33,021 nt of DNA from an uncultured Bacilli bacterium (lineage in GTDB: Bacteria; Bacillota_I; Bacilli_A; RF39; UBA660). This document shows positions 12,505 through 27,072 of the stretch, in pieces (within the stretch, counting starts at the first letter, position 1; every line of letters starts with the position of its first letter). Under the pieces are notes generated by a model. The model had not been told where the DNA came from, ran no database searches, and saw nothing but the letters and a program-made list of their open reading frames with translations. The stretch lies in the NCBI GenBank assembly GCA_947623995.1, contig CANQIN010000008.1, positions 1 through 33,021 of the forward strand, read 5' to 3'. The position numbers were made by a program, and so were the translations under genes.

Positions 12505-12609
12505 ATTCATCACTAACAATAGTTTAACACTTATTTTAAAAAAAGAAAACTTACTCTAAAAATTATTTTTCATAAATCTTTTTCTTATAATATTTATTAT
12601 TAAAAAAAA

Positions 12610-12645
12610 CTTGGCAAAAATAGGATTAATCCTAGATTTGCCAAG
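12610..12645. repeat. Inverted repeat copy A (36 bp, itself palindromic), left end of ATPase block; also a terminator on the minus strand
   Basis: The arms CTTGGCAAA and TTTGCCAAG enclose the core TAGGATTAATCCTA. On the minus strand it is followed by eight T (12609-12602), so it ends the ATPase transcript from 12664. The same sequence occurs in opposite orientation at 15729-15762 with 34 of 34 bases identical. Confidence 0.8.
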
Positions 12646-12663
12646 AAATACAAAAAATTTATA

Positions 12664-14016
12664 TTATAATAATTCAGTCATATATATTGGGATATATAAA
12701 ATGCCATTTTCTTCTTTTAAATCTTTTGTATGAATAATTATTGCTTTATCTAAATAATCATTATATTTTTCTTTTAATTTATTTAATGAAGAATACTTAT
12801 ATCTTTTACTAGATTTTACTTCAATTGGAACAATATTATGTTTAGAAGTAATCTTATTAGCAGATATTAAAAAATCAATTTCCATTGTACTATCTGAATC
12901 ATTTCGATTATTTTTAGAAAAAAAGTATAATTTTCGACCATTACTTACTAACATTTGAGCTACAATATTTTCAATTATCATTCCTTCATTAAAAGACAGA
13001 TTATCAAATAATATTTTTTTATAAATTTCATCATTTATTATTTGTTTCTCATTGAAAGTCATAGTAAGTAACAAACCGGTATCTAGAAAATAACATTTTA
13101 AACTATTATCATTAATTCTTTGTCCTAAACCAATATTAGGCTCAGTTGTATTATAAGCAATGTTAATCAAAGAAGCATCAGAAAGCCAATAAAATGCTCC
13201 TTCGTAATTTCTATATCTAGCTGTTTTATTTAAAACTGATAAATTAAACTTTTTTTCATGTTTTTGAAGTTGAGAAGGAATTGTATCAAAAATTTGTTCA
13301 ACTTTTAAATTTAATTCATCAGCATGTTTTCTAATATCTTCACGATATAAGTTTATAATATTTCTTTTAATTTTATCAGTAAGTTGAAAATCTCTTCCAT
13401 TACGATATTCATTAACAGCTTGAGGCATTCCTCCTACAATTAAATATTCTTTAAAATAATCCATTGCTTTACGATGTAGAGCTTGACCTAAAGGTTTTTT
13501 ATTATTATAGCATTCTCTTATATAATCCATTAAAGTTGTATTACCCATTGCCCATAAAAATTCTTCAAAATCCATAGGTGTCATTTTAATTATTTCTTCT
13601 TCAGAAGGAATTAAGATATCCTTAACATTTTTTTTGATAGATATTAAAGAGCCAGTTTCAATATAATCATATCTACCATCCATAACTAAATGTTTAATAG
13701 CTCCTCTAGCTTTAGGACAAAACTGAATTTCATCAAAAATAATTAGTGATTCTTTTTCATATAATTTTGTTTCATAGTATTCTGATAAATAAGTGAATAA
13801 ATAATCAAGATTATCTAAGTAAAGCGAAAACAATTTTTTAATTTCATCGGAAACTTTAGAAAAATCAATTAAAATAAAAGACTTGTAATTTTCTTTAGCA
13901 AATTCTAAAGTAATATAGCTTTTGCCAACCCGTCTTGCTCCTTCAATTAATAGAGCACTTTTTCCTTTGCTTTCTTCCTTCCATTTTAAAATTTCATTAT
14001 ATATTTTTCTTTTCAT
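12664..14016 (-). CDS. AAA-type ATPase with C-terminal DUF4143 / PD-(D/E)XK-like domain (450 aa)
   Basis: The N-terminal ATPase domain has Walker A GARRVGKSY (about residues 25-33) and Walker B LIIFDEIQF near residue 98, then a TGSLIS sensor-like segment. The C-terminal half has the layout of DUF4143: a winged-helix-like middle, FLDTGLLLT, and a nuclease-like motif MEIDFLIS followed by PIEVKSSKR, where D and E-x-K match the PD-(D/E)XK pattern. AAAGGA precedes ATG at a good distance. The gene is single, with direct repeats just upstream and an inverted repeat terminator downstream. Members of this family are common, often multi-copy and flanked by repeats in gut Bacillota, but their cellular role is not settled; DNA binding or defence-like roles would be guesswork. 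Confidence 0.85.
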   Translation of the reverse strand: MKRKIYNEILKWKEESKGKSALLIEGARRVGKSYITLEFAKENYKSFILIDFSKVSDEIKKLFSLYLDNLDYLFTYLSEYYETKLYEKESLIIFDEIQFCPKARGAIKHLVMDGRYDYIETGSLISIKKNVKDILIPSEEEIIKMTPMDFEEFLWAMGNTTLMDYIRECYNNKKPLGQALHRKAMDYFKEYLIVGGMPQAVNEYRNGRDFQLTDKIKRNIINLYREDIRKHADELNLKVEQIFDTIPSQLQKHEKKFNLSVLNKTARYRNYEGAFYWLSDASLINIAYNTTEPNIGLGQRINDNSLKCYFLDTGLLLTMTFNEKQIINDEIYKKILFDNLSFNEGMIIENIVAQMLVSNGRKLYFFSKNNRNDSDSTMEIDFLISANKITSKHNIVPIEVKSSKRYKYSSLNKLKEKYNDYLDKAIIIHTKDLKEENGILYIPIYMTELL

Positions 14017-14049
14017 ATCAAAATTCCTTTCTAATTATTAATATTTTAA

Positions 14050-14133
14050 CACGAAATCAAAAATAACAAAATACTTATTCTGCACGAAATCAAGATTAAT
14101 AAAGTGCCAAATTTGCACGAAATCAAAAATAAT
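14050..14133 (-). repeat. Three direct repeats at exact 33-bp spacing upstream of the ATPase gene
   Basis: The plus-strand core CACGAAATCAA starts at 14050, 14083 and 14116, each followed by an A/T-rich run such as AAATAA. Spacing is exactly 33 bases twice, close to three helical turns. The sequence between cores two and three contains GTGCCAAATTTGCACG. The array ends 34 bases before the ATPase ATG, overlapping where its promoter should be, so a regulatory binding array is likely. Confidence 0.65.
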
Positions 14134-14186
14134 AGCTATTTTCGTTGACTATTATTATTTTTTTTAATTATTTCTATTTTTAAAAG

Positions 14187-14459
14187 TTATAATTTTTTTT
14201 CCTTAATCTTTTGCTCTAAAATAAATTCAAAAGCATAAAATTCATTGCTAATATGGTCGGTTAATATAGAAAAAGTATTATCAATATTTAATTGATAAAT
14301 AATTTTTGCTGTTATTTTAACATTTTCTAAATCAATTTTTTCTTTTAAAGAATTAATACTACTTTCAAAATTATCAATATTAATATTATCTAAATTATAA
14401 TCATTTGAATTCTTTAGTAATTCAATATCTTTTAATATATTATTTAAATGTTCTATCAT
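14187..14459 (-). CDS. Hypothetical small protein (90 aa)
   Basis: This begins 20 bases after the stop of the broken ATPase gene, with AAAAGG a short distance before ATG. The product is acidic and probably helical (HLNNILKDIELLKNSND), then contains TAKIIYQLNIDN and a charged C-terminus. There is no signal peptide or membrane segment. Its position between two DUF4143 ATPase genes, and apparently in the transcript of the broken one, makes it a cargo or partner gene of the block. I do not recognise the family. Confidence 0.55.
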   Translation of the reverse strand: MIEHLNNILKDIELLKNSNDYNLDNINIDNFESSINSLKEKIDLENVKITAKIIYQLNIDNTFSILTDHISNEFYAFEFILEQKIKEKKL

Positions 14460-14479
14460 TTTTACCTTTTATTTTTAAA

Positions 14480-15682
14480 TTAAAATATAACTGATATTGG
14501 ATATGATTTATTATTTTCATCTAATGGAATAATTGTTGGATAAAAACAAAGAAGTCCACCATTTCCAACATTTAAGTTTTTATTTTGCAATACTTGAAAA
14601 TTACTAATCATACTTTTTTGAGGATTTGCCGTCTTTTTTATTTCAAATGGATATATAACATTGTCTAAAGAAATTATTAAATCAATTTCTTTTCCATCTC
14701 TATCCCGATAATAATAAATATTATAATTTAAATCTTGTAAATTATTTCTTTTATTTTTTATTAATTCACTAATAACAAAAGCTTCTAAATAGTGTCCTGA
14801 AACAGTCGAATTCATAATATTTTCACCACTATTCCAACCACACAAATAAGAGCACAATCCTAAATCTAAAAAAATAATTTTAGGACTTTTTGTACATCTT
14901 TTTAATTTACTATTAAAATATGGTTCTAATAAATAAATTATGTCACTTGCTTCTAAAATGGAAATCCATCTTTTAGCTGTTGTAGCATCAATACCTACAC
15001 CTTCACAAATTGAATTATAATTTAATACTTCTCCATTTCTAGAAGCAACGGCAACTAAAAATTTTTTAAATGTTGTTAGATTGCCAACTTGTGTTAAATT
15101 TCTAACATCTCTTTCTAAATAAGTAGTTACATAATCATTAAAAAAAAACATTTCGGTCAATATTGCTATTAATATATTCTGGCATTCCTCCTAAAAATAT
15201 TTCATCAAATAATTCTTTCGGATTAATAGTGAACTTATAAGATATATTATTTGGTAAGAAAAGCCGGGAAGTAAAACCTTTTTTTTCAGCATAGCTTAAA
15301 GAAGATAGTTCAATTATGGAAATTCTGCCTGCAAGTGATTCGCTAACATTTTTCATAAGTTCAAACTTTTGTGAACCAGTTAACCAAATACTTCCTTTTT
15401 CATTATTTTCATCTACTTCCATTTTAAGATAAGAAAATAAATTTGGAGCATATTGTACCTCATCAATAATGATTGGTTTTGATAGTTCATCAAAAATAGT
15501 TTTGGATCATCTGTAGCAAGCTCTCTTAATTTTAAATCATCTAAAGTAACATAAGTCCGATTTTTTTCTTTAATGCTTTTAACAAGTGTTGATTTACCAA
15601 CTTGAAGAGCTCCAGTTAATAAAATTATTTTTCTTTGCTTAGTTATTTTCTTAAATTTTTCTTCTATTTCTCTTTTTATCAT
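14480..15682 (-). pseudogene. DUF4143 AAA ATPase, broken by two homopolymer frameshifts
   Basis: Three ORF-track entries (89, 94 and 226 aa) are one ATPase gene. The first part has Walker A TGALQVGKST and LDDLKLRELATDDPKLF. One extra T in the T5 run near 15500 would continue as FDELSKPIIIDEVQYAPNLF (Walker B) into WLTGSQKFELMKNVSESLAG. At the second break, a T9 run (15140-15148), eight T would join IDRNVFF to NDYVTTYLERDVRNLTQVG. The C-terminal part has LDLGLCSYLCGW, the nuclease-like KEIDLIISLD and YPFEIKK. The joined protein is about 400 aa, normal for the family. Both breaks are one-base changes in T runs with opposite sign, so slippage or miscounting could explain them. It has its own promoter next to the right inverted repeat. 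Confidence 0.82.
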
Positions 15683-15699
15683 AAATATTCGCCAATATA

Positions 15700-15728
15700 A
15701 ATATAAGATAAACCTACAATTAAGTCAA
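15700..15728 (-). promoter_or_regulatory. Promoter of the broken ATPase, abutting the inverted repeat
   Basis: TTGACT (15728-15723) and TATATT (15705-15700) are 17 bases apart. The -35 box starts at the base next to the inverted repeat (15729), pointing into the block, so the palindrome would lie just upstream of RNA polymerase. Confidence 0.65.
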
Positions 15729-15762
15729 TGGCAAATCTAGGATTAATCCTATTTTTGCCAAG
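15729..15762. repeat. Inverted repeat copy B (34 bp), right end of ATPase block
   Basis: This is the exact reverse complement of 34 of the 36 bases of copy A (12610-12645), including the palindromic core TAGGATTAATCCTA. It sits between the end of smc (15784) and the first ATPase promoter. Unlike copy A it is not followed by a T run on the minus strand, so it is a poor terminator for smc. I found no convincing target-site duplication outside the two copies. Confidence 0.8.
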
Positions 15763-25809: not shown

Positions 25810-27072
25810 TTACATTTTTAAAGTAGTAATTGGCACGACATAGATGCCATCTTCTCTTTGATATGCTATTTTTCCAGCAGTTAAAATCATTAAAAATGAT
25901 GGCTTTTTCATTTTATCTGTATCAATAACATTTTCTAATTTCAATAAATTTTTAGCAGCTTCTTCAATAGATTCATCAGAACCAATTTTAATTTCAATAG
26001 CTCCCCATTTTCCATTTTTTAAATGAATAATTGCATCACACTCTAAACCAGATTTATCTCGGTAAAAAAATACATCGCCATTTAAACAATCAGCATAAAT
26101 TTTTAAATCTCTTAAGCATAAGGCTTCAAATATAAGTCCAAATGTTTTAAAATCCATCAATAAATCTTTATCACTGGCACCTAAAGCAGCTATAGCTAAT
26201 GATGGATCAACAAAGCATCTTTTATTTGTCGTACGAATATCAGTTTTACTTCGTAATTTTGGTTTCCATGCCATTACATCATCTATTATATATAATTTTG
26301 ATAAAGCATTTAAGTAGTCAGCAATTGTTTTTTCAGAAATTTCAGCATCATTATATAATGTATCTTCCTTAATTGTAGTCAAATTAGCGGTAGTACAAAT
26401 ATTTCTTGCAAGACTTTTTAATATTATTCTTAATCTTGTAGGATTTCTAGTAATTTCGTCAACTGTATTAATATCATTTGATATTACTGATTCTAAATAA
26501 TCACTTGCTATTATTAATGCTCCTTCATTATCTGCAGTTAAAGAATCCGGCCAACCACCTCTTGCACATAAAAAAGCAATATCTTCTAATTCTTTATCAG
26601 AATAACCATTTATTTTTTTTCGATTAAATAAATCTTCTAATGATACTTCACCTGTAGAATCATTTGATTCATAAAGACTCATTGTTCTCATAAATAATTT
26701 AATTATTCTTCCTGTACCAGTATGTTTCGGTTGTTCTTTTCTAGGAGTTGCAGAACCTGTAAGTATATATTGATTTTTTAAACCAGTATTATCTATATCA
26801 TAACGAATTGCATCCCAAAGCATTGGAGCATCTTGCCACTCATCGATTAACCGTGGTTTTTCACCAGTTAACAATAAGTCTGGACGAGTTTGGGCTATTT
26901 CCAAATTATTTTTTCTTGTTGCTGGATTTTGTAGTTCTAAATAACTTTTAGCAATTTGCTTGGCAGTAGTGGACTTTCCACACCATTTTGGACCTGTTAT
27001 TAATATAGCTCCATACAATTTTAAACGCTTAGTTAAAACACTATCCATTATTCTTGGCATATATTTTTCCAT
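25810..27072 (-). CDS. AAA-type ATPase with DUF4143 / PD-(D/E)XK-like domain (420 aa)
   Basis: The ATPase domain has Walker A GPKWCGKSTT (about residues 27-36), Walker B-like RLIDEWQDAP near residue 75 and TGSATP. The rest follows DUF4143: LARNICTTANLTTIKEDT in the winged-helix region, RTTNKRCFVDPSLAIAALG, and the nuclease-like LECDAIIH with AIEIKIGS. It is only distantly similar to the ATPases at 12664 and 14480, so it is not a recent duplicate. AGGGAG lies eight bases before ATG. Upstream is an array of 23-bp repeats. It is flanked by an IS remnant and the rfb operon, consistent with a mobile or accessory origin. Role not established. Confidence 0.86.
   Translation of the reverse strand: MEKYMPRIMDSVLTKRLKLYGAILITGPKWCGKSTTAKQIAKSYLELQNPATRKNNLEIAQTRPDLLLTGEKPRLIDEWQDAPMLWDAIRYDIDNTGLKNQYILTGSATPRKEQPKHTGTGRIIKLFMRTMSLYESNDSTGEVSLEDLFNRKKINGYSDKELEDIAFLCARGGWPDSLTADNEGALIIASDYLESVISNDINTVDEITRNPTRLRIILKSLARNICTTANLTTIKEDTLYNDAEISEKTIADYLNALSKLYIIDDVMAWKPKLRSKTDIRTTNKRCFVDPSLAIAALGASDKDLLMDFKTFGLIFEALCLRDLKIYADCLNGDVFFYRDKSGLECDAIIHLKNGKWGAIEIKIGSDESIEEAAKNLLKLENVIDTDKMKKPSFLMILTAGKIAYQREDGIYVVPITTLKM

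Follow-up and report, generated by a model that had tools for sequence, protein, structure and literature searches.

A conserved promoter palindrome as a probable operator of a PDC-S01-type ATPase gene in a variable slot downstream of smc

The window analysed here is a stretch of 33,021 nucleotides (nt) from an uncultured Bacilli bacterium, in which a gene block on the minus strand between smc and priA is flanked by two copies, A and B, of a 34-bp palindrome. As the first-pass annotation of the window had described, an intact DUF4143 ATPase gene (ATPase1), an open reading frame (ORF) of 90 amino acids (orf90) and a broken DUF4143 ATPase gene (ATPase2) lie between the copies (Table 1). The inverted pair was borne out, as copy A (12610-12643) is the reverse complement of copy B (15729-15762) at 34/34 bases. 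Each copy had also been called palindromic; the symmetry is present, but it is not perfect, each copy being nearly self-complementary, and at its full extent palindrome A covers 12610-12645. We propose that B is probably a subfamily-specific operator of ATPase2, that A is a duplicate of this site, and that the block as a whole is a patchwork.

Table 1. Position, strand and basis of the features of the ATPase block, in window coordinates
Feature	Position	Strand	Basis
T8 tract, terminator tail directly after palindrome A	12602..12609	-	sequence; minus-strand hairpin fold runs through the tail
Copy A, second ATPase2-type palindrome, terminator-like	12610..12645	-	34/34 match to B; fold
ATPase1, intact AAA_14/DUF4143, 450 amino acids, PDC-S01 type	12664..14016	-	Pfam; PADLOC PDC-S01 E 5e-115
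Operator-like array of ATPase1 (three direct repeats, minus-strand sequence TTGATTTCGTG)	14050..14126	-	33 bp spacing
orf90, 90-amino-acid ORF without known domain	14187..14459	-	no Pfam/PADLOC/NCBIfam match
ATPase2, PDC-S01-type AAA_14/DUF4143, frameshifted into three ORFs	14480..15682	-	ORFs; Pfam
ATPase2 promoter: TTGACT, 17 nt, TATATT, directly adjoining B	15700..15728	-	sequence; same arrangement at G009:C87
Copy B, operator-like ATPase2 palindrome located between smc and the ATPase2 promoter	15729..15762	-	match to A; position; relatives

A search of the genome from which the window derives (1.47 Mb, 138 contigs) for further copies returned only A and B at ≤3 mismatches, and half-site matches elsewhere in this genome were few and imperfect. 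Shuffling the window (n=100) yielded no match to the 34-base copy at the same threshold. A genome-wide terminator or a repeat of the repetitive extragenic palindromic (REP) type was ruled out by the presence of only two copies in the genome.

The -35 box of ATPase2, TTGACT, starts at 15728, the base adjoining B. A palindrome abutting the promoter in this way was also present at G009:C87 and, with different spacers, at G025:C34, G018:C30, G031:C6, G001:C35 and in G351. At G025:C34, palindrome and ATPase2 occur at another locus, within an array of surface-protein-like genes, and the module common to this locus and the window is delimited exactly by the ATPase2 stop on one side and the palindrome's outer end on the other. 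A search of 37 genomes of the genus for the core TTTTYGGARTN{0,4}AYTCCRAAAA gave 12 matches, each of them beside an ATPase2-clade gene (12/12), and the reverse pattern used as a control gave 0 matches. Among 386 genomes of the family, only four outside the genus had core matches; in one of these, G351, which belongs to another genus, the core palindrome abuts the -35 box of an ATPase gene whose product is 61% identical. A promoter-proximal palindrome or direct-repeat array accompanied 20 of the 21 ATPase2-clade genes inspected in the genus, the exception being G032:C16, where a deletion took most of the palindrome. A protein query used to find relatives of ATPase2 combined reading frames from the window and from G025 (97% identical to the G025 protein), and its matches were re-checked with translated references. 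The variants differ in sequence but follow the same plan (GACTTTTTyGGA...TCCrAAAAAGTC; ACATTTTCGGA...TCCGAAAATGT; ATGGCTAATTTGGA...TCCAGATTAGCCAT), and in a further variant GACTTTTTTAAAGT is directly repeated, with the -35 box forming part of the repeats. Pairing the palindrome bases outward from the centre showed that swaps of the A-T/T-A and C-G/T-A kind leave the symmetry intact. Within the genus, the sites are confined to ATPase2-clade genes; the exceptions are copy A and what look like relics in G018 and in G031. We also considered that the same palindrome might occur at all DUF4143 genes. This was rejected because a simple palindrome score, calculated for the DUF4143 genes retrieved from the genus, was barely above the control. 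The palindrome is strong only in the ATPase2 clade, and other DUF4143 clades carry other repeat types.

Three lone palindromes were noted in the course of these searches. Window-type palindromes without an adjoining ATPase2 gene occur at G018:C30:513-544 (L073) and G031:C60:215-246 (L049), and the one in G018 still abuts a TTGACT promoter; both look like operator relics left after gene loss. In another genus, a palindrome with long A/T arms around a GGAGT...ACTCC core stands alone at G293:C14:21441-21463 (L232), the 1.5 kb on either side being free of ATPase2-like genes.

The association was then followed beyond the family by a clade-alignment scan with one genome per species, which gave 80 loci from Bacillota, Spirochaetota, Bacteroidota, Proteobacteria, Verrucomicrobiota, an archaeon and others. 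Upstream palindrome scores of 74 homologues were significantly higher than those of neighbouring genes (Mann-Whitney p 5.5e-9), and a score of at least 12 was reached by 27/74 homologues compared to 27/295 neighbouring genes. At 23 of the 38 loci with a clear promoter, the palindrome includes the -10 hexamer, which is usually separated from the left end by 6 nt, as in TTCGGC-TATAAT-AAGATTAAATCGTATTTTAGCCGAA. To guard against circularity, 48 upstream regions were anchored on the promoter alone and a common symmetry centre was sought. A single centre was obtained 12 nt after the start of the -10 hexamer, near the expected transcription start, with a z-score of 9.1 that is not corrected for descent; complementarity at this centre was 60% compared to 49% in shuffled sequences, and the column pairs were of several Watson-Crick types. 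The same procedure applied to 86 promoters of neighbouring genes from the same genomes gave z -0.7 at that centre and ≤2.2 anywhere, likewise without correction for descent. An RNA hairpin in the 5' untranslated region was considered as the function of the palindrome and is unlikely: the left arm, as it includes the -10 hexamer in the phylum-wide class, would not be transcribed, which favours a DNA-binding site. At four loci (L252, L249, L278 and L193), two tandem palindromes or half-sites are located upstream of the same ATPase2-clade gene.

ATPase1 is preceded by a different type of repeat. Its three direct repeats start at 14050, 14083 and 14116 and are thus 33 bp, or about three helical turns, apart. 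Three matching repeats are present at a different locus in G032, upstream of an ATPase1 homologue with 80% identity, and more distant ATPase1-like genes (~31% identity) have another inverted repeat over TTGATT. Subfamily-specific promoter repeats thus look common in this ATPase family, and the three direct repeats appear to constitute a separate, operator-like array of ATPase1.

By their sequences, ATPase1 and ATPase2 are members of the PDC-S01 family, a phage-defence candidate predicted to combine an AAA ATPase, an apparent winged helix and a PD-(D/E)XK nuclease. Nearly full-length matches to the PADLOC model were obtained for ATPase1 (Table 1), for the ATPase2 homologue at G025:C34 (E 4e-105) and for a G025 protein encoded between whiA and clpP (E 9e-102). 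The Walker A and EID...ExK motifs are invariant or nearly so, and Pfam assigns AAA_14 and DUF4143. Thus, ATPase1 and the intact proteins of the ATPase2 clade resemble described PDC-S01 proteins, while the window copy of ATPase2 is frameshifted, unlike its intact relatives that match the model. In an AlphaFold model of the G024 protein (mean pLDDT 91), an ATPase part is followed by a helix-helix-strand unit at residues ~237-267 and a nuclease-like end carrying EID...ExK; the helix-helix-strand unit between the ATPase and nuclease parts may correspond to a winged helix. A sequence search against solved structures gave weak P-loop matches only, and a fold search returned, at modest TM-scores, archaeal AAA+ ATPases, RuvB, Can2 and STAND proteins including Avs4 and Apaf-1. 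PDC-S01 has been described as the fourth most common defence across prokaryotes, with an ATPase fused to the PD-(D/E)XK superfamily, and most such defence candidates still await experimental validation (PMC12988326). In rumen genomes it is the most frequent individual locus (PMC13356809).

Taken together, these data point to autoregulation as the most likely mechanism behind the promoter palindromes. Each PDC-S01 ATPase subfamily would keep its own dyad or direct-repeat site at the promoter; we infer that the winged helix of the ATPase, or a protein tied to it, most likely binds this site and thereby silences the ATPase gene until infection or stress. Several observations weigh against this interpretation. 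About half of the homologues have no strong palindrome by the score used, and the loci are related by descent, so that fewer independent observations stand behind the z-score than its size suggests. The place of the palindrome also varies by subfamily (over -10/+1, just 3' of the -10 hexamer, or upstream of the -35 box), and a single geometry of repression would therefore not fit all of them. Finally, an operator role does not explain copy A, and a downstream copy recurs at the whiA-clpP locus described below.

Copy A itself looks like a terminator. It lies 18 nt past the ATPase1 stop, and a run of eight T comes directly after it on the minus strand; the hairpin formed by the RNA of this strand has a free energy of -18.5 kcal/mol (z -5.6), so that A shows the GC-bearing hairpin and the U-tract of an intrinsic terminator. 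B also folds into a hairpin, but no T-run follows it directly on either strand. Neither A nor B was reported by the automatic terminator scan because its stem rule permits no internal mismatch. The identity of the two copies indicates that one was copied from the other. A would accordingly be a duplicate of the ATPase2 site that either came to lie between ATPase1 and priA or stayed there as a remnant. With the T8 tract behind it, A most likely now serves to terminate transcription of ATPase1. The assignment of terminator function to A and of a promoter-adjacent, operator-like role to B, made in the first-pass annotation, is consistent with the hairpin and T8 tract of A and with B abutting the -35 box of ATPase2.

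To place the block among its relatives, the interval between smc and priA was compared and found to be highly variable. In G009 (smc 99% identical over the aligned part), the order is smc, palindrome, ATPase2, orf90, one remnant repeat and the sequence upstream of priA; this genome thus has B and an intact ATPase2 of 400 amino acids and lacks ATPase1 and A. In G008 (smc 98% identical), smc is followed by an orf90 relative (70% identical protein), a gene for a CYLTTACM-motif protein and ATPase1, with neither A nor B. ATPase1 of G008 has 98.8% DNA identity (99% identical protein) to that of the window, and the match stops at window position 12657, between the ATPase1 stop and A. In G031, smc is followed by palindrome B and ATPase1-type repeats, with no ATPase2 in the remaining 214 bases of the contig. 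G005, G002 and G017 have unrelated sequence after smc, and no A/B-type palindrome was found at smc in these three genomes or in G008. Since the slot is so variable, the block is neither fixed at this place nor a genome-wide terminator. A, B, ATPase1 and ATPase2 have been gained or lost separately, and this speaks against a single element with A and B as its ends. We concluded that the variable slot downstream of smc most likely holds a patchwork of defence-candidate genes rather than one two-ended element. In a comparison of 20 genomes, the slot right after smc held differing sequence in many of them and was cargo-slot-like.

The first-pass annotation had read A and B as the paired ends of a mobile or invertible element without a transposase. 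This reading was not supported: the copies are unlinked in near relatives, no recombinase, target duplication or inverted allele was found, and the palindrome type turned out to be a gene-specific upstream element of an ATPase clade across phyla. A related possibility is a mobile cassette that carries the ATPase gene from place to place and has the palindromes as its ends, on which either the ATPase-nuclease or functions of the host would act. Such a cassette would fit the two-sided copies of the window and those of the whiA-clpP locus, where in G024 and G025 two copies in direct orientation (3 positions differ) bracket a lone ATPase2-type gene. In several relatives whiA and clpP are adjacent without an ATPase gene, and in G032 the upstream copy is largely deleted and the downstream one kept. 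The different position of the palindrome-gene module in G025 and the predicted nuclease of the protein would also be in line with mobility. However, a downstream copy was absent from 73 of the 74 homologous loci, the exception being the G024 whiA-clpP record itself, and from all other sites in the genus apart from the window and whiA-clpP. Moreover, no near relative has both A and B, and the copies are inverted in the window but direct at whiA-clpP. There is no recombinase, the two genome copies do not amount to multicopy spread, and the sequences outside A and B share no direct repeat, as judged from the window alone since no clean pre-insertion smc-priA sequence was available for comparison. 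The second two-sided case at whiA-clpP keeps the idea of mobile ends alive at low probability, and we regard a mobile cassette as unlikely. We hold it similarly doubtful, and if anything slightly more so, that the PDC-S01 ATPase-nuclease recognises its own palindrome both for promoter control and for mobilisation or copying of the cassette, in which case the A/B and whiA-clpP pairs would be footprints of a single-protein mobile element.

It was also considered that the palindrome arms at whiA-clpP derive from the target. The empty relative G023, which has a plain terminator with AGACTTTTT arms between whiA and clpP, was suggestive in this respect; as a general explanation this was rejected because the same arms occur at unrelated ATPase2 sites.

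A further alternative is that the palindromes are bidirectional terminators only, of smc and of ATPase1/priA, and match by chance. The hairpin of A with its T8 tract, a T-run on the clpP strand after the downstream copy at whiA-clpP, and the similar arms of the plain terminator in the empty relative would all be expected of terminators. B, however, has no such T-run, the palindrome goes with the ATPase gene and the ATPase promoter and not with smc, no such palindrome is present at smc in G005, G002, G017 and G008, and the genome-wide copy number is two, which makes a purely terminating function improbable. That A and B are recombination sites which flip the block, as the perfect inverted 34-bp copies enclosing it might suggest, is very improbable, as the parts of the block found at smc in relatives all have the same orientation with no inverted allele among them, the Pfam scan of the block revealed no invertase and, in agreement with the first-pass annotation, no transposase or recombinase, and A and B occurred together in no other genome searched.

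With B read as an operator of ATPase2, its arrangement can be set beside known systems. Toxin-antitoxin and restriction-modification control genes have autoregulated operators, and the likeness lies in a dyad that overlaps or adjoins the promoter of a gene for a potentially harmful nuclease; here, a single-gene system is concerned, and autoregulation would be exerted by the ATPase itself. As in miniature inverted-repeat transposable elements (MITEs) and insertion sequences, identical inverted sequences flank the gene block of the window, but in the present case there is no transposase, no target duplication was seen, only two copies exist, and the ends are unlinked in relatives. The RptR-controlled defence island likewise has a repeat-controlled defence promoter, and its site comprises three direct repeats, like the three of ATPase1, with a 6-bp palindromic minimal site (PMC12255303). 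RptR is a separate small repressor (PMC12255303), whereas no separate regulator was seen here, the presumed binder being the winged helix of the ATPase, and the dyads described here are 30-40 bp long.

PDC-S01 is reported to be among the most frequent candidate defence genes in prokaryotes. Our literature searches on operators of DUF4143/COG1373/PDC-S01 genes gave nothing relevant on the control of this family, and PMC12988326 makes no mention of an operator or promoter feature of PDC-S01. The conserved upstream palindromes are thus an addition to PDC-S01 as described so far. More generally, the genomic comparisons point to a subfamily-specific palindrome or repeat array at the promoter of a defence candidate that is very common but uncharacterised. 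Its occurrence across several phyla poses the question of whether the ATPase binds and silences its own gene and how it is released. The palindromes also provide sequences through which the DNA specificity of a predicted ATPase-nuclease could be approached. Should the two-sided copies prove functional, they would point to an undescribed way of moving defence genes.

Some further observations concern the genes of the block and their homologues. The CYLTTACM-motif protein gene of G008 is located at ~1950-2506 on the minus strand of G008:C4 (L036), between the orf90 relative and ATPase1; the window lacks this gene, and orf90 stands alone. A third DUF4143/PDC-S01-type ATPase gene is encoded in the window at 25810-27072 (minus strand). 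The 1.47-Mb genome has 18 DUF4143 matches in total, and four genomes of the genus have none. Homologues of the ATPase were also found on 349 plasmid records, 140 of which are predicted to be conjugative, with Rhizobium, Agrobacterium and Moraxella being most frequent.

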